Part shown: piece by piece, positions 1-6,442 of the stretch
How positions within the stretch are numbered: position 1 is the first letter of the stretch
How the letters are laid out: the number at the start of each line of letters is the position of its first letter
Program-made: the position numbers and the translations under genes
Origin: Candidatus Pacearchaeota archaeon
Lineage (GTDB): Archaea; Nanoarchaeota; Nanoarchaeia; Pacearchaeales; GW2011-AR1
Assembly: GCA_002686195.1 (NCBI GenBank)
Contig: NZAS01000188.1
Location: 1-6,442, forward strand
Direction of reading: 5' to 3'
DNA length: 6,442 nt
The notes under the pieces: generated by a model
What the model was told of the DNA's origin: nothing
The model's database searches: none
Seen by the model: only the letters and a program-made list of their open reading frames with translations

Positions 1-3000
1 AACTAAAGAAAGCCAAAGCAGGCGACATTACTTTAATCCAAGGAACAGTTTCCTCTCAGCACTTTCGAGAACAGTGTTTTCTTTTGGCAAATATTCTAGA
101 TTTTGCAGTTTATAAAAAGTTTAAACTAGAATCAGGGGGGCTTGTTACAAAGAGGCTTCCTTATGTAGACAAAGGAAGCAATGCGTGCTTGATGATTGAT
201 GGCGAGTCATATGGTTTTATTAATCAGCTTACTCAAAGTCCCACTCAAAATGTATTTTTTGATATGGAACCTAAAGACATTGCCACCTTACAGCCCATGA
301 TTCGTCTTTACAAAGTTAATACTGATAAAGAGACAGGCGACGAAACTGAAATAGAAATGAATTTCTCTTCAAACGCCACTTATCAGGAAATAAAAAGTGC
401 TTTTGATGATTCGGGCAGAAGAGGGGTAGGCGTTGGTATAAAAGAGTTTAATTTTACATATGATGGCTCGACGCCTTTTGCCGCTAAGAAAAGCATTAAA
501 GCCAAATTAACGTTGGTGGCGAATAATTTTGACGAACTGTTAAAGCCACGCGGACGCTCCTCTAAAAAGTATAGATATATTGATTTAGCATTAAAAACAG
601 GAACAAAGACTGGCGCCCAGACAGAACTTCAAGAGGCTAATTTATCTAAATTAAACTTCCGCCTAAAAGCGTTGGTGGGATGGGCACTTCCCCCTGGCGA
701 ATTGGAACATTTTGGAGGCTGGAGAAAAAAGAATGGCGAGGTTATAAAAAAGAGAGAGCTTATTAGAGCTATTTATGATTCCTTTGTGACGCTTAATTTG
801 ACACCGACCATTCATGAATTTGGTATTGATGAAACTGGGCGCACTACATTAACAATTAATTATTTGGCATATGTAGATGATTTTTATGATCAACCGACTT
901 TCAATATTTTTTCTGATCAGAATGCTGCCCTTACATTGCTTACCCGAGATCTGAGATATAAAAAAGTAATGCAATCGCCTAACTGTAATGCTGCAGATAT
1001 TGCGGAAATGAAGAAGGAAGACGGATATGCGGATGTTGTAAAAGAAGCTCGCCAAATTAACATGCGCTCATTAGCTCGCCAACTGATGAAGAAGAACTTA
1101 ATACGTTATATGTCTGTACCCTTTGAGGAGCAGTTATCCTTTTTAGAAAAGGGCCCCTTTTATAATCGTGCAACTGGACTGTATGAACAAATCGCTTTAA
1201 ACGTGCCGGAAACTGCCACCAAAGACATGCTGGATGATCTGGGGATGGCCACCGGTCCTGATGAAGTAGAACTAGCCGAAAAAGAATTAGAGGAGGCTAA
1301 GGCTCTTCTGAGGCAAACAGAGGCCGCAGCGCATCGGGATATAGGCGGCAGCATGCAGGACGCCGTTTCCGACGCGCAGGCAGCTGTTAGCGAAGCTGAA
1401 GAGGCACTCGGCAAAGCCCGGTGGCAACCGACTGCTGCAGAATCAGATGCGGTAGGAGCCAGCACTGTGGCAGATTTAGTTTCGACAGAACCAGAACCCT
1501 GGACAGGAGGTGATGCCAACACTGTCGCGACAGGCGAGCAAACAGCCGCTGATATCGCCTCCGCAGCGATAGAAGCACAACTTCCAGGGTTTGTTGATGT
1601 TGATGCCACGGAGGCCGCCGAAGCATATGCCGCTGACGCATCACTCTATGGGACTTATGATGCAGGGGAAGAGCTTACTCAGAATCAGGCTGACGAGCTT
1701 GTGGCGGATGTGATGCCTGATGCGGACAAAGCCTTAGAAGAAGAAGAAAAGAGTGGCACGGGCGTGCAGGAAATGGGAGAGATACCTCGTAAAATTGTTA
1801 ACTTGAACACTTATAATATCGCCTTTTTCTTTGTTAGTGATTTAATAGATCTCATCCTGGAGGGGATAGATGACTATCTCAGAGATATGCCGTCTAAAAT
1901 TACAGGTGAAGGTTCACCAGTGATAGAACAGATAGCAAACGATAAAATAGATATGGATGATGTGGCGGCAGAAATAGCTAGGATTAATAAATTTCGTGTG
2001 CAATTTGAGAAATTTAGAGTATTGCTGGGTCCCCTTGAATTGGTGAGTCCCAAAGATGATGTAGCTAGCGTATTTGTAAACTTTGGAGACGTGCCTGTTT
2101 CATTAAAATACTTTATGGAATGGCTCACTGATAAGCTCGTCCGCAAAGAGAAGTCAATTTATACTTTAAGTAAGTTCTTAAGCGATTTCTTTAATCATTT
2201 AGTGAGCGGATTTCTTAATGATAACACATGTTTTGGCTATTCTATTAAGCAAAAAACCAGGGTGAACCAAGCAGCTATCACATCTTATAAAAGTAGTAAA
2301 AATAAAAATGATGAAGTAACTCAATGGATTGTGGACAATCGGGTCCATGCGGGGATTGCGCGTGGAATGATTAATCCCGGCGCCGGAGGAATGCCCCAGC
2401 CTATATTGAACATTTCGGGCAAAGATCGTCATCCCGAGGTAAACCCAGGGCCCTCGCAGGAAATTAATTATATGGTATTTTTTGCAGGAAGAACACAGCC
2501 TTCCGACATTATGAAAGGCTCCCGAACGGCTGATGAGTCACGTGGCATTTTTCATTATATGCTGGGGAAGGATCGCGGCATCGTTAAAAAGATTGATCTG
2601 ACGCGTACAGATGCTAAATTTTTGCGTGAAGTGCGTTTTGAACAAGAAGGCTACAATGGACTTGAACAACTAAGAGAAGTGTATGATGTAGATATCGAGA
2701 CGTATGCCAATGTAAAAACATTTCCGGGAACATACATATATGTGAACCCTAAAGGGTGGGCGCCCAACACAGATTTCGATCTTACTCGATTGGGAATAGG
2801 AGGCTATTGCATGATTATCCGTTCAGAACACTCCTTTGGTGCCGGAAAGGCAAATTCTAAGATTACGGCTAAATGGGTGGCATCTATTGGTGCTAATGAA
2901 AAATCGGAGTTTCCTGACTCAGGCCGAGGCGCCAATACCGATACTCAGAAATGCAGAGCAAATCGCAGTACGGAGGCAAAAAGAACTGATTGGTGGAGCG

Positions 3001-3104
3001 GCAAAGTGGCTGGCGTCCTAGAGGCAATGGGGCTCGGTGGTGCAAATCCCGAAGTTGCCGAAGGCGACGGCACCGATGACACCCCTCCCACGCCAACGGA
3101 CTAA
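1..3104 (+). CDS. Large virion protein, probable baseplate hub-like protein (5' end outside window)
   Basis: The reading frame is open from the first full codon (base 3) to TAA at 3102-3104, about 1,033 codons, so the gene starts upstream. The TTG at 84 has no Shine-Dalgarno sequence and is not a convincing start. Three parts are visible. An N-terminal part (to about 1205) has beta-rich segments such as GVGIKEFNFTYDGSTPF and RYIDLALKTG. An insert (about 1206-1770) is rich in Ala, Glu and Asp. A C-terminal part (about 1780-3020) has a helical stretch (VNFGDVPVSLKYF, near 2080) and then DRGIVKKID, FPGTYIYVNP and LGIGGYCMIIRSEHSFGAG. The last pattern (Gly-Tyr, beta strand, His-Ser-Phe, Gly) resembles the closing beta domain of gp27/gpD-type tail hubs, hence the call. 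The tail ends in an acidic, Pro/Thr-rich segment. No lysozyme or peptidase motif was seen. It would act in the virion, at the baseplate or tail tip. A virion role is likely; the hub assignment is inference from motif resemblance. Confidence 0.6.
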   Translation, partial: LKKAKAGDITLIQGTVSSQHFREQCFLLANILDFAVYKKFKLESGGLVTKRLPYVDKGSNACLMIDGESYGFINQLTQSPTQNVFFDMEPKDIATLQPMIRLYKVNTDKETGDETEIEMNFSSNATYQEIKSAFDDSGRRGVGVGIKEFNFTYDGSTPFAAKKSIKAKLTLVANNFDELLKPRGRSSKKYRYIDLALKTGTKTGAQTELQEANLSKLNFRLKALVGWALPPGELEHFGGWRKKNGEVIKKRELIRAIYDSFVTLNLTPTIHEFGIDETGRTTLTINYLAYVDDFYDQPTFNIFSDQNAALTLLTRDLRYKKVMQSPNCNAADIAEMKKEDGYADVVKEARQINMRSLARQLMKKNLIRYMSVPFEEQLSFLEKGPFYNRATGLYEQIALNVPETATKDMLDDLGMATGPDEVELAEKELEEAKALLRQTEAAAHRDIGGSMQDAVSDAQAAVSEAEEALGKARWQPTAAESDAVGASTVADLVSTEPEPWTGGDANTVATGEQTAADIASAAIEAQLPGFVDVDATEAAEAYAADASLYGTYDAGEELTQNQADELVADVMPDADKALEEEEKSGTGVQEMGEIPRKIVNLNTYNIAFFFVSDLIDLILEGIDDYLRDMPSKITGEGSPVIEQIANDKIDMDDVAAEIARINKFRVQFEKFRVLLGPLELVSPKDDVASVFVNFGDVPVSLKYFMEWLTDKLVRKEKSIYTLSKFLSDFFNHLVSGFLNDNTCFGYSIKQKTRVNQAAITSYKSSKNKNDEVTQWIVDNRVHAGIARGMINPGAGGMPQPILNISGKDRHPEVNPGPSQEINYMVFFAGRTQPSDIMKGSRTADESRGIFHYMLGKDRGIVKKIDLTRTDAKFLREVRFEQEGYNGLEQLREVYDVDIETYANVKTFPGTYIYVNPKGWAPNTDFDLTRLGIGGYCMIIRSEHSFGAGKANSKITAKWVASIGANEKSEFPDSGRGANTDTQKCRANRSTEAKRTDWWSGKVAGVLEAMGLGGANPEVAEGDGTDDTPPTPTD
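1263..1770 (+). other. Coiled-coil plus acidic disordered insert within the hub-like protein
   Basis: This part of the large structural protein differs sharply from its flanks. Bases 1263 to about 1420 encode two heptad-like helical segments, EVELAEKELEEAKALLRQT and MQDAVSDAQAAVSEAEEAL, separated by a Gly-containing break, which suggests a helical hairpin. Bases about 1421-1770 encode an Ala/Asp/Glu/Thr-rich stretch with few hydrophobic residues, probably flexible. By hand count bases 1321-1440 are 65% G+C (78/120), against 37% (22/60) at 1081-1140. Part of this comes from Ala and Gly codons, but third positions are also fairly GC-rich. The frame stays intact, so this is an in-frame domain and not a broken gene. 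Confidence 0.6.
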
Positions 3105-3105
3105 T

Positions 3106-3110
3106 AGGAG
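3106..3110 (+). promoter_or_regulatory. Ribosome binding site of the 404-residue protein gene
   Basis: AGGAG lies directly after the upstream TAA stop and 9 bases before the ATG at 3120. It fixes this start and shows that the gene is translated straight after the large structural gene, with no room for a terminator between them. Confidence 0.8.
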
Positions 3111-3119
3111 AAAGATTAT

Positions 3120-4334
3120 ATGTCATTATATTATGCCGAATCAAATAGCGAAACGACGCGAAAACTCTTTATTAAAAGAAACATTTATCGTAACCGGATG
3201 ATAGGAGCAGCCGCACGTTTTCCTAACATCATAGATTTTAATTTTGCAGAAAAGCAACTCTATGGCAGAGTCAATAGAGTGTTCACGCCTATCACATTTA
3301 ATAATAGCGTTCTCCAATTAAAACAGTTTGATGCGTCTGTCTCTCAGGGGGACGGCATATCTGCTATTAATTTCGTAGTGGATGCTTTTAATGGACTCAA
3401 TCAGCAATTTGCCAAATGTGCAACGCAAGGAAAAATCTCAAAAGATGATCCATATTTAAGTACTCTGCGTGTGTTTAGAGCTTATGTGCCTCCTCACCAA
3501 GCTTATAATGATCAATGGCGCGCCTATATGGCACTTGTGGACGCTGCATTTAAAGCTGCCAATGTGGAAGTCAAAGATTTCGATGAGTTTATTAAAGAAC
3601 TGATGATAGTGTTAAACAAGACAGCCGCCACCACCGCTTTTACGCAGCCTGCATTTACTAAAAGTAGAAGATGTTCTATTCAGACTTCTGGATTGGCTGT
3701 GGAAATTGCCAATCTAAATGCATCCAATGATTTTGATAAGATCGTGGCTTTTGTCCGGAGCCCTAACTGGGGCTTTTATGTTAATGCTTGTAATTCATAT
3801 GGTTTTATGGTAGATCAATGGAACCCCTGGCGCTTGGTTGCGGACATTGGCGCACCAGCTATGATTCGAGATTATGTTTCTAAGTATGGGGTGACATCCA
3901 CTCAACAGATAATAGACTTGGCATACAGTTATACTCATGGAAGATACTATCGTAACTTTAAATATTATCTCCTAAACATGTATAATCATGTGAGAAAAAA
4001 AATGGTGACAGTTGAGGAACAGTGCGGAGGTAGAACTATTCAAAAACGCATTCAGACAAAAACTTATTCCATGGAGGAACTCACGGAAAAATATTCTGAA
4101 TCTTATTTTTTGGAACTGTATTGTCGTATTCGATTTTTGGAGGAAGAGTCATCGTTTCCAGAATATAAAAAAATAAGCTTGACTAAAGATACCATAGCGT
4201 TGTATAATAGTAAGAGTCTCGGAGCAGCTTTGGAAAAATTTGAAAGAATTATTAATAAAACATTTGACTATAGTGGTTCAATGAGTTATATTATTGATCA
4301 TAGAAGAGCAGTTCGCGACTCGGAGGGACCGTGA
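3120..4334 (+). CDS. Putative phage virion protein of unknown function (404 aa)
   Basis: I do not recognise a named family. The start is an ATG with AGGAG 9 bases upstream; the stop TGA (4332-4334) overlaps the next gene's GTG. The protein is soluble-looking, with no signal peptide or membrane segment. It is rich in aromatic residues and Arg, and has several Cys. The most distinctive block is around residues 216-242, with NWGFYVNACNSYGF followed by NPWRLVADI, a Trp/Tyr/Asn-rich stretch that looks structurally constrained. A second block, HGRYYRNFKYYLLNMYNH (about residues 276-293), is strongly aromatic and basic, and the C-terminal third is mostly helical and charged. Its position 15 bases behind a probable baseplate protein suggests another tail or baseplate component. 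A role with the following polymerase cannot be excluded. No catalytic motif was seen. Confidence 0.6.
   Translation: MSLYYAESNSETTRKLFIKRNIYRNRMIGAAARFPNIIDFNFAEKQLYGRVNRVFTPITFNNSVLQLKQFDASVSQGDGISAINFVVDAFNGLNQQFAKCATQGKISKDDPYLSTLRVFRAYVPPHQAYNDQWRAYMALVDAAFKAANVEVKDFDEFIKELMIVLNKTAATTAFTQPAFTKSRRCSIQTSGLAVEIANLNASNDFDKIVAFVRSPNWGFYVNACNSYGFMVDQWNPWRLVADIGAPAMIRDYVSKYGVTSTQQIIDLAYSYTHGRYYRNFKYYLLNMYNHVRKKMVTVEEQCGGRTIQKRIQTKTYSMEELTEKYSESYFLELYCRIRFLEEESSFPEYKKISLTKDTIALYNSKSLGAALEKFERIINKTFDYSGSMSYIIDHRRAVRDSEGP
4179..4208 (+). promoter_or_regulatory. Candidate sigma70 promoter inside the 3' end of the 404-aa gene, upstream of the polymerase gene
   Basis: TTGACT (4179-4184) and TATAAT (4203-4208) are separated by 18 bases, matching the sigma70 consensus at 11 of 12 positions. 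Transcription would begin near 4215, about 115 bases before the polymerase GTG. It lies in coding sequence, so chance is possible in AT-rich DNA, but it could give the polymerase and tubulin-like genes their own timing apart from the structural genes. Confidence 0.4.
4322..4326 (+). promoter_or_regulatory. Ribosome binding site of the DNA polymerase gene
   Basis: GGAGG lies inside the last codons of the upstream gene, 4 bases before the GTG at 4331. The spacing is short, but the match is strong and supports the GTG start. No other plausible start codon follows until far into the protein. Confidence 0.65.
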
Positions 4335-5521
4335 TATTTCAGACATTGGATGATAAGTCCGAATGTGTGGGAATATATGTAGATGGTAAATTGCATTTTG
4401 ATGCATTGCCGTCCAATCTCACCAGAACATGGAAGTATACAGGATCCATTACTGATCCTAATGTGGAGTATGCATGGCTGCGCTGTGGGGGACAGTCTCT
4501 CAAACAGGCATGCCCCGAAGAGTTAATCGAGGACTGGCGCCGATTACAGCGACGTTTTGAAGCATATTTAAAATCTTTCAGAATCGGAAAGATTAGTATG
4601 CGCGAGCATTGTTTTTTTGATTTGGTGCCTAAAGATTTCTTGCATGAGTTTTGTGATGTTAAGAATAAAATCACACAAGATGTATTTGATAACTACGAGA
4701 AGCCAGCAAATTATGATCATTTAGATCGGGTTCAAAAATTATTGTATAAGATTAAGTATAGAGATCTTAATGTTAGCGGAGCCAACAGTAAAGCTTTGTT
4801 TTATCAGACACACATGAGGGATCGCGCACGCAAATTATTGAAGGGCCCATTGCATATTGATTATAATTTGTTCGGCACAGTGACAGGGAGATTGGCAACC
4901 CATTCTAATTCTTTTCCGATTCTGACAATGATGCGTGATTTGAGAAAGATAGTGAAACCTCACAATGAATGGTTTATATCGTTGGATTATAATGGTGCCG
5001 AAGTGCGCACCTTTTTGGGGCTAACAGGAAAGAGACAGCCCCAAGAAGATATTCACGAATGGAATAAAATCAATGTCATTCGGAAGAAAGACTTATCACG
5101 TGATGAAATGAAAACTATATTTTTTGCTTGGCTCTATGGCGGAACCACACAGAATGTATTAAAGGACAGCACATACAACAAACAAGAAGTACTTGATAGA
5201 TGGTATGTGGATGGAAAAGTAAAGACTCCGTTTGATCGATCTATTATCGTTGACGAAAGAAAGGCGCTCAATTATGTCGTCCAGAGCACAACTGCAGATT
5301 TAGTTTTACACAAAGCAGTCGTGATTGATGAGTTCTTGGAAGGAAAGAAATCTTTTGTATCGCATGTTGTTCATGATGAGATTGTATTGGACATGGCAGA
5401 GGATGAAAGGGAATTGATTGTAGATATTAAAAAGATATTCTCCGAGACTCGGTTCGGAGACTACATGGTGAACCTTAAGGCAGGTAAGAATTATTGTGAT
5501 CTGGAGGATTTGAATCTGTGA
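4331..5521 (+). CDS. Compact family A DNA polymerase without recognisable exonuclease domain
   Basis: Template-directed DNA synthesis, presumably phage genome replication in the host cytoplasm. The polymerase motifs occur in order: TGRLATHS (residues 185-192), motif A LDYNGAEVR with catalytic D219 and E224, motif B R257-K261-F265-Y269-G270 (RDEMKTIFFAWLYGG, close to the T7 pattern RDxxKT...LYG), R310-N314-Q318 with the E. coli Pol I spacing of R841-N845-Q849, and motif C H348-D349-E350. All key residues are present, so it should be active. F265 is at the E. coli F762 position, which in that enzyme favours rejection of dideoxynucleotides. The protein is short for the family: 42 residues from motif A D to motif B K, against 53 in E. 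coli Pol I. About 180 N-terminal residues show no clear DxE-type exonuclease motif and remain unassigned. GTG start, with a 4-base overlap with the gene before and the gene after. Proofreading, if any, must come from another protein. Confidence 0.9.
   Translation: MIFQTLDDKSECVGIYVDGKLHFDALPSNLTRTWKYTGSITDPNVEYAWLRCGGQSLKQACPEELIEDWRRLQRRFEAYLKSFRIGKISMREHCFFDLVPKDFLHEFCDVKNKITQDVFDNYEKPANYDHLDRVQKLLYKIKYRDLNVSGANSKALFYQTHMRDRARKLLKGPLHIDYNLFGTVTGRLATHSNSFPILTMMRDLRKIVKPHNEWFISLDYNGAEVRTFLGLTGKRQPQEDIHEWNKINVIRKKDLSRDEMKTIFFAWLYGGTTQNVLKDSTYNKQEVLDRWYVDGKVKTPFDRSIIVDERKALNYVVQSTTADLVLHKAVVIDEFLEGKKSFVSHVVHDEIVLDMAEDERELIVDIKKIFSETRFGDYMVNLKAGKNYCDLEDLNL
5503..5507 (+). promoter_or_regulatory. 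Ribosome binding site of the tubulin-like gene
   Basis: GGAGG, within the polymerase C-terminal codons, sits 10 bases before the GTG at 5518. It supports that start, which is needed to keep the N-terminal glycine loop (IVALGNAA). An internal ATG start at Met29 would remove it. Confidence 0.7.
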
Positions 5522-6360
5522 TTTCAATTGTCGCCCTAGGAAATGCCGCCACTGCTATTGCGGAGAAGTTTGGTGATACGCCGAATTATCACGTGTATAA
5601 AATGAACAACAAAGTGAAGCGGAATTCTAAATACCAATTTAGATTGAAAACGTATGATACACCTGAAGAATATGAACATAATATTCCGGATGTAAAAAAG
5701 TTTTTCAAAGATGTAGACGAGCATGTTCAATTTATTATCGTGGGGGCATCTTACAGTTCCAATTATGCTTTGGGAATATTAGAACAACTAAAAGATAAAA
5801 GGTTGGACATATTTTATATCAAGCCCGATACTGATTTGCTTACAGGAATCCCACGGTTATTGGAAAATACAGCGTTTGGAGTTCTTCAAGAATATGCCCG
5901 TTCGGGATTGTTTCGTTCCATGACTATTTTTTCTAATTTAAATCTAGAAAATATTCTACAACACATTCCGGTGAAAGAATATTATGAAACATTAAATACG
6001 TCAATTTTTTCAACCATACATTATTTAAATTACTTTGAACATTCAGAGCCGGAAATCGGTCAAGTTTCTAAGCCTGCTGACATTAATCGAATCAGAACAG
6101 TTGGCATGTTAGATATGAAAACTCTTGAAGAAAAGTGGATCTTTGACATTGACACCGAGAGAGAACTGTGTTATTATATGTGTATCAATGAAAAAAGATT
6201 AAAGGAAGAAGGCGGTCTTCATAGAAAGATTGTAAATATACTAAAGGAAAAACCAAGAAATGCTTTTAGAAAAATTTCATATGCAATCTATGAAACCCCT
6301 CTACCACAAGACTTTGGGTTCTGCGTTGCCCACACTAACGCAATCCAAAAAAACTCTTGA
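5518..6360 (+). CDS. Divergent tubulin/FtsZ-like protein (280 aa)
   Basis: No named family is certain, but the order of elements follows the tubulin/FtsZ fold. Residues 2-14 (ISIVALGNAATAI) match strand 1, the first nucleotide loop and helix 1. VYKMNNK (near 26-32) matches strand 2 and its NTD-type loop. FIIVGASYSSN (72-82) stands where FtsZ has the GGGTGTG loop. Then come IKPDTD (101-106), the helix ending NTAFGVLQEYA, a strand and NLNLENIL, as in FtsZ's KP...E...A...L...IPNDKLL. N160 fits the Asn before helix 7. ADINRIRTV (187-195) lines up with FtsZ VDFADVRTV: D188 would be the D209 equivalent, but the D212 equivalent is R191. The GGGTGTG signature and the GxGxNP loop are missing, so nucleotide binding or hydrolysis may be weak or lost. 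The protein is shorter than FtsZ (383 in E. coli). GTG start, translationally coupled to the polymerase. It may be a filament-forming or filament-capping protein positioning DNA or capsids. The fold is inference from hand alignment; an unrelated Rossmann-like protein is the alternative. Confidence 0.55.
   Translation: MISIVALGNAATAIAEKFGDTPNYHVYKMNNKVKRNSKYQFRLKTYDTPEEYEHNIPDVKKFFKDVDEHVQFIIVGASYSSNYALGILEQLKDKRLDIFYIKPDTDLLTGIPRLLENTAFGVLQEYARSGLFRSMTIFSNLNLENILQHIPVKEYYETLNTSIFSTIHYLNYFEHSEPEIGQVSKPADINRIRTVGMLDMKTLEEKWIFDIDTERELCYYMCINEKRLKEEGGLHRKIVNILKEKPRNAFRKISYAIYETPLPQDFGFCVAHTNAIQKNS
6149..6177 (+). promoter_or_regulatory. Candidate extended -10 sigma70 promoter inside the tubulin-like gene
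   Basis: TTGACA (6149-6154), a 17-base spacer ending in TGT, and TATTAT (6172-6177) match the consensus at 11 of 12 positions plus the TGn extension. Transcription would start near 6184, within the last 60 codons of the gene, and would read into the gene beyond the right edge. It has the same 17-base spacer and TGTTAT junction as the promoter at 6357. It lies in coding sequence, so chance is possible. Confidence 0.45.
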
Positions 6361-6385
6361 CTTGCTTAGTTGAGAGTGTTATACT
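6357..6385 (+). promoter_or_regulatory. Sigma70 promoter with extended -10, driving the downstream gene
   Basis: TTGACT (6357-6362) and TATACT (6380-6385) are separated by exactly 17 bases, with TGT just before the -10 box. The -35 box contains the tubulin-like gene's TGA stop. Transcription would begin near 6392, giving a leader of about 50 bases before the next gene. No hairpin terminator precedes it, so read-through from upstream genes is also likely. Recognition by unmodified host RNA polymerase is expected from the consensus. Confidence 0.75.
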
Positions 6386-6406
6386 AGAACAGTAAGGAAC
6401 GCTTAT

Positions 6407-6422
6407 TGTTTACTCATAAACA
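6407..6422 (+). repeat. Short perfect inverted repeat in the leader
   Basis: TGTTTA (6407-6412) and TAAACA (6417-6422) form a 6-base perfect inverted repeat around CTCA, about 15 bases after the predicted transcription start and just before the ribosome binding site. It could be an operator for a dimeric repressor or a weak leader hairpin. It is AT-rich and short, and no T-run follows, so it is not a terminator. Confidence 0.35.
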
Positions 6423-6430
6423 TCAAAAAA

Positions 6431-6435
6431 AGGAG
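6431..6435 (+). promoter_or_regulatory. Ribosome binding site of a gene starting beyond the right edge
   Basis: AGGAG after an A-run (AAAAAAAGGAGATAAATT) ends 7 bases before the window edge, so a start codon is expected at about base 6443. The strong site next to the promoter at 6357 implies a well-expressed gene. Confidence 0.7.
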
Positions 6436-6442
6436 ATAAATT

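Follow-up and report, generated by a model that had tools for sequence, protein, structure and literature searches.

A protein with a predicted tubulin fold is encoded in a 6,442-nt stretch of contig NZAS01000188.1, which was analysed whole and is here called the window. Its gene lies on the forward strand at 5518..6360 (stop included), has a GTG start and specifies 280 amino acids (aa); the protein is referred to below as the candidate. The candidate lacks the glycine-rich signature of the tubulin GTP-binding loops, and its gene holds a fixed place between those of a short family A DNA polymerase (PolA) and a gp32-type single-stranded DNA-binding protein (SSB). The explanation we prefer, at about an even chance, is that it is a tubulin-fold protein which no longer follows the ordinary GTPase cycle and serves phage DNA replication in connection with the replisome. 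A cytoskeletal fold would then be linked to the replication operon of uncultured T4-like phages, some of which have a second, motif-complete tubulin, and the tubulin superfamily would gain a very large family missed by the profile searches run here. An earlier note, made from the window alone, had proposed a phage tubulin/FtsZ-like protein with a degenerate nucleotide loop. That proposal is upheld in part, and on better grounds than its original argument: the predicted fold and the degenerate T1 and T4 loops across relatives support it, its T7 detail is left unsupported, and the genomic context lay beyond its view.

Predicted fold

The structural model of the candidate has the features that define the tubulin/FtsZ superfamily, namely an N-terminal Rossmann-type domain, a long central helix H7 and a C-terminal alpha/beta domain. 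Strands (E) and helices (H) of the N-terminal half are E2-7, H9-18, E24-30, E40-42, H49-54, E69-75, H79-89, E95-102 (which closes with KPD), H110-128, E134-139 and H140-147; those of the second half are H152-175 (H7), E180-182, E192-199, E204-207, E216-224, H225-230, H234-243, E252-260 and E266-273. Structure prediction followed by a fold search, a check proposed in the earlier note, returned the tubulin-superfamily fold. Among the matches listed, CetZ, TubZ, FtsZ and tubulin (PDB 3zid, 2xka, 1w5a) are 8-15% identical to the candidate. Unlike them, it has no GGGTG[ST]G motif, no PF00091 match over the cut-off and, in the model, no helices H2 and H9 and no H8 between H7 and S7; these helix names follow FtsZ usage. 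The candidate is a predicted rather than a demonstrated tubulin, and the fold carries that claim because detection from sequence alone gave nothing significant.

H7 comprises residues 152-175 (5971..6042, forward strand) and includes N160, H168 and N171. The T7-equivalent loop, residues 176-191 (6043..6090, forward strand), has a short bridge at 180-182 and leads directly into strand 192-199, leaving H8 of FtsZ without a counterpart. Because no helix separates H7 from strand 192-199, the segment ADINRIRTV named as T7 in the earlier note mixes loop with strand, and the argument built on it (a first Asp kept as D188, the second replaced by R191) finds no support in the predicted structure. A comparison of D188/R191 with the D..K pair of beta-tubulin was dropped for the same reason, residues 192-199 being a strand. 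Among 355 distinct sequences, position 188 is Glu or Asp in 310 and position 191 is Arg or Lys in 354.

Nucleotide-side loops and distant relatives

The T1-equivalent loop is placed at residues 8-13 (GNAATA; 5539..5556, forward strand) by the order of elements and by alignment, and the T4-equivalent loop, VGASYSSN, at residues 75-82 (5740..5763, forward strand), where tubulins have GGGTG[ST]G. Neither signature is present: the T4 position reads GASYSSN, and instead of a GxGGxGxN-type T1 loop the window has GLGNAATA and its clade typically GLGNAASA. An initial reading of T1 as shortened, drawn from secondary structure alone, was ruled out by the deep alignment, in which T1 is full-length and has lost its glycines.

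That alignment became available through profile A5 of the candidate family, which found distant candidate relatives in two of ten records selected because they carry a phage tubulin of a more distant kind. These two led to 58 deep loci with 39 distinct open reading frames (ORFs) that are 31-40% identical to the window protein. Their loops come closer to those of tubulins. T1 is GLGAAGCN in some, and the T4 equivalents include GGGGRIAG, GGGGKIAG, AGGGKISG, GGSGDVSG and SCGNISG, none of them identical to GGGTGTG, while the window's clade has GSSYSSN-type T4 loops. By computation, the glycine signature of T1 and T4 is lost in that clade. The family's loops run from tubulin-like to signature-free; the family is unrooted, and we infer the direction of change. 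Because of this gradient from glycine-rich to signature-free loops, loss of the GTPase signature can be traced and tested within a single lineage.

Several other positions are kept. N140, N160, D104, H168, N171 and K153 are invariant over the 355 distinct sequences, and residue 80 is Ser in 348 of them. The Asn after S6 and the Asn in H7 presumably contact guanine in FtsZ.

Sequence searches

Homology searches show the family to be large and unannotated. Among 1,784 proteins considered, 1,205 match the candidate at E≤1e-3, and neither a precomputed Pfam domain nor a functional name is attached to any of the best 120 of these. Searching again, with a relative about 44% identical to the candidate as query, gave 820 proteins, a set that may overlap the first. 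Since some of the matches listed are Tara entries, the phages are apparently marine. The gene is under strong purifying selection: the ratio of nonsynonymous to synonymous substitution rates (dN/dS) was 0.030-0.105 in 13 of 15 pairs from six sequences, with dS saturated in two pairs and high in most. This marks it as a genuine gene rather than one in decay.

Pfam and PHROGs gave nothing significant for the candidate itself, PF00091 included, nor was kinship with tubulin revealed by running both on 98 family members or Pfam on deep members. With profiles of the family (A2, 98 members; A5; A6, 30 members, of which 24 are deep and six nearer), no A2 member reached PF00091 at E≤1 and two of the 30 A6 members did so below the curated cut-off (best E 0.022). 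The Pfam tubulin-family comparison proposed in the earlier note thus produced no match over the cut-off for the window protein or for the 98 and 30 members. No tubulin was among the matches listed in searches of PDB sequences with A2, A5 and A6 (E limit 10). A tblastn search with the candidate of 50,697 phage records (INPHARED; E limit 1) found no match, and six stretches of GTDB genomes that matched a pattern did not code for a relative. Alignment by hhalign of the candidate with the canonical tubulin of the same phages (see below) gave probabilities of 4.6, 4.8 and 2.3, with pairwise E values of 0.008-0.021.

Matches to cysteine synthase (PDB sequences, E 0.13), GARS_N, TrkA_N and nudix were dropped as low-scoring over part of the chain or restricted to few members. 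One member's match to an HNH PHROG (E 5.7e-4) was set aside for the same kind of weakness.

Among known systems, PhuZ and TubZ of the nucleus-forming jumbo phages share with the candidate a phage origin and the tubulin fold, which for the candidate is predicted. PhuZ and TubZ are GTPases that retain the signature. Makarova and Koonin (2010; PMC2875224) describe FtsZl1 and FtsZl2 as highly diverged members of the superfamily. Both have the motif GGGTG(S/T)G in the GTP-binding loop, and a search for this motif is what led to FtsZl2; the candidate does not have it. Among openly available journal papers, a literature search listed none recognisable as an account of a phage tubulin that lacks the signature and belongs to a replication operon.

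The replication operon

PolA, 396 aa (4331..5521, forward strand; PF00476, E 1.5e-16), is encoded immediately upstream of the candidate, and upstream of it is a 404-aa protein of unknown function (3120..4334, forward strand) whose stop overlaps the PolA start in the window. This arrangement was followed through 80 contigs with 54 distinct candidate proteins, loci being counted as testable where they had enough upstream or downstream sequence. PolA was found in 75/75 testable loci, the 404-aa protein in 40/40 and SSB in 69/69, and the order was constant wherever it could be seen (PolA upstream in 78/78, the 404-aa protein upstream in 63/63, SSB downstream in 79/79). SSB, which lies beyond the window, was identified by phrog_1192 (E 2.7e-25) and PF08804 gp32 (E 1.9e-12). 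In each of the 78 assessable loci the stop of PolA and the start of the candidate gene share 4 nt, ATGA in 70 and GTGA in eight.

The same neighbours recur in deep relatives. Among the 51 deep loci whose ORF could be placed, 38 of 39 testable ones have PolA upstream, L455 being the sole one in which it was not found, and 41/41 have SSB downstream. The constancy of this place, down to relatives of 31-40% identity, points to a role in DNA replication instead of one directed at host FtsZ.

A sigma-70-type promoter-like site, TTGACT-17-TATACT (10/12 consensus; 6357..6385, forward strand), overlaps the end of the candidate gene ahead of the SSB position. Six other promoter-like sites in 3000-6442 score equally well or better, and 22 such sites were found as against 11.6 in shuffles. 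A loose promoter pattern occurred in 27 of 79 candidate-SSB gaps compared with 130 of 3,950 random stretches, the loci being related and hence not independent.

The phages and a second, canonical tubulin

Among the phage records, G001 has 195,459 bp and is probably complete, since its ends overlap by 127 bp; seven other long records have no exact end overlap within 400 bases. G001 encodes a terminase (phrog_2, 3.9e-53), portal (phrog_213, 2.7e-68), head protein (phrog_138, 6.2e-69), sheath (phrog_23, 7.2e-61) and UvsX-like protein (phrog_97, 6.2e-62), families that point to a distant T4-like myovirus. It differs from the nucleus-forming jumbo phages in looking T4-like by head, tail and terminase families, and none of five large records matches the multi-subunit RNA polymerase domain PF00623 (RNA_pol_Rpb1_2).

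Three of six large candidate records (G001-G003) have a PF00091 match over the cut-off elsewhere in the genome. In G001 this is a canonical phage tubulin of 380 aa (9060-10202, reverse strand) with GVGGGG, GGGGGTGS and SFDSKD; a further copy lies in L275 (1045-2184, reverse strand). It keeps GVGGGG, GGGGGTGS and DSKD and has no significant profile link to the candidate. The canonical tubulin has 885 protein matches at E≤1e-3, of which the best 120 were listed and the rest may include cellular FtsZ, and its profile matches CetZ at E 1.6e-10. Seventy distinct copies, from the best 80 of 174 viral-contig relatives and the copies first found, are at least 84% identical. It has no match among the 50,697 INPHARED records.

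Candidate and tubulin occur together in twelve records (G001-G003, G007, G015-G017, G022, G024, G029, G033 and G038). Among 20 canonical-tubulin records, three of them chosen because both genes were present, eight hold the candidate about 39-41.5 kb 3' of the tubulin on the same strand. All eight continue for more than 45 kb 3' of the tubulin (G001 by circular closure); the 12 without a candidate end within 33 kb. The tubulin of G024, about 43 kb 5' of the candidate, is cut by the contig end and scores 24.9 bits, under the Pfam cut-off. No tubulin was found in G025, G026 or G027, which have less than 41 kb of sequence on that side of the candidate, and G029, G033 and G038 hold both genes at other spacings. 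All 11 records whose tubulin is uncut have GGGGGTGS and DSKD, and ten of them have the T1 pattern GVGG[GA]G (G038 was unmatched by the pattern used).

Farther out the association thins. Seven of ten deep-candidate records have no tubulin match; of the eight not picked for tubulin only G038 has one, and the 145-kb G039, which may be incomplete, has none. Profile A6 found no candidate in ten tubulin records previously without one (eight with the distant tubulin, two from the 20), an empty answer that proves little, although G034, G036 and G037 of these continue for more than 50 kb 3' of the tubulin. Within the window's clade the two genes show strong co-occurrence; across the wider group it is incomplete.

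Conserved faces

Entropy over 79 sequences spanning all clades was compared among 28 segments (mean of the whole chain, 1.87 bits). The lowest value, 0.68 bits, belongs to the end of H5 and the residues after it (120-130, FGVLQEYARSG; 5875..5907, forward strand), where Q124, R128 and S129 are each kept in 79/79. The end of H7 (168-175) is second at 1.21 bits (H168 in 77/79, N171 in 78/79), and residue 191 is basic in 79/79. T4, at 1.79 bits, is near the mean and the T7-equivalent loop is more variable (2.24); five of the 79 lack N140 through substitution or absence, and five likewise lack N160. By topology, the ends of H5 and H7 would be found on the side facing away from the nucleotide, and the wide family favours this T7-side face as the conserved surface. 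In the near family the pocket-side positions are more conserved than the opposite-side loops (1.04 versus 1.53 bits; p 0.03 against random N-domain positions, a weak value for positions that were our own choice), so both faces have some claim.

Possible functions

The replication role that we prefer may be pictured as follows. Translation of the candidate would be coupled to that of PolA, and the protein could act as a scaffold or positioning factor of the replisome, binding PolA, SSB or DNA. Its working surface would be the side opposite the old pocket, with a highly conserved polar patch of Q124, R128, S129, H168, N171 and basic 191. Because N140, N160 and the Ser-rich T4 loop are kept in the window's clade, the pocket may still hold a ligand there without the usual GTP hydrolysis. 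The candidate may, in addition, make contact with the canonical tubulin that the phage encodes separately. Several points weigh against this picture. The structure is a prediction, and the polar patch was located by topology only; kinship of the candidate with tubulin is not established by sequence, as the hhalign probabilities are only 2.3-4.8; neighbours in an operon need not touch, contact with PolA, SSB or DNA being our supposition; and the promoter-like site ahead of SSB suggests that SSB is also made separately.

This explanation and its four rivals overlap in part. The earlier note had suggested a cap or non-GTPase partner, which has gained weight since a motif-complete tubulin is encoded by some of these phages themselves. 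A regulator of the phage's own tubulin, fitting one face of it and acting on its filament as cap, end factor or co-polymer subunit, is possible, if on the unlikely side: it would suit the twelve records with both genes, the presence of the candidate in every one of the eight sufficiently long records of the 20, the intact GGGGGTGS and DSKD of the tubulins, and a polar patch that topology puts on the T7 side. Yet the genes are separated by at least 21 kb wherever the distance was measured and each may be no more than a core gene, no candidate was found in the long stretches of G034, G036 and G037, tubulin is all but missing from the deep records not picked for it (G038 only, and not G039), and the model has no H8, which in FtsZ is part of the T7-side contact surface. 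Quite unlikely, in our estimate, is a sensor or enzyme with a pocket rebuilt for a different ligand that bears guanine or phosphate (such as a dNTP or signalling nucleotide), by which it would tune replication. The invariance of N140, N160 and D104 over the 355 sequences, the near-constant S80 and the lower pocket-side entropy of the near family would fit it; the near-average T4 entropy of the wide family, the replacement or absence of each Asn in five of 79 sequences and the weakness of that p value, obtained on self-chosen positions, would not.

An inhibitor of host FtsZ, also suggested in the earlier note, would draw on the predicted tubulin fold. We hold it to be very improbable: the gene is fixed in the replication operon down to the deep relatives, so large and conserved a family is in our judgement unlike a host-specific inhibitor, and no link to FtsZ turned up, no direct test having been made. 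Still more improbable is a Rossmann-type protein that binds NAD(P) or a nucleotide and resembles tubulin without being related to it, a reading to which weak Pfam matches point (GARS_N in 30/98 members, best E 9e-4; F420_oxidored in 13/98, best E 0.01; TrkA_N in one deep member, E 0.001).

The replisome role might be extended to a two-tubulin phage, a scheme that we put forward as rather unlikely in this full form. The motif-complete tubulin would be a dynamic filament, and the candidate, made with PolA beside SSB, would tie the replisome to it; if true, this would be a phage parallel to the division of labour between tubulin paralogs.

Other genes

PolA is very short at 396 aa; G001, of the same lineage, also has a 1,143-aa ORF that by eye resembles a DnaE-type polymerase with a PHP domain. 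Between PolA and the candidate, two deep loci have a small gene that looks MazG-like by eye (L411 2511-2816 and L412 2393-2704, both reverse strand). This gene was matched in 12 of the 51 deep loci, and the L411 copy has no significant Pfam match. The 404-aa protein gave a confident model (predicted local distance difference test score, pLDDT, 94.5) with no Foldseek match in PDB at E≤0.001; its middle part weakly resembles VanY/LdcB-type peptidases, with no clear fold match. The window begins with a long ORF (3-3104; 1,033 aa, 5' end open) whose middle is rich in Ala and Asp and which matches no Pfam or PHROGs family significantly; g214, the G001 counterpart of its place, is near tail genes. 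In G001, ORFs g13, g15, g92, g93, g94 and g99 have by eye a similar stretch, approximately MKxLxENWRxxLxE, at or near the start. They otherwise look unrelated, two of them flank the canonical tubulin, and the stretch could be a shared targeting or maturation leader.
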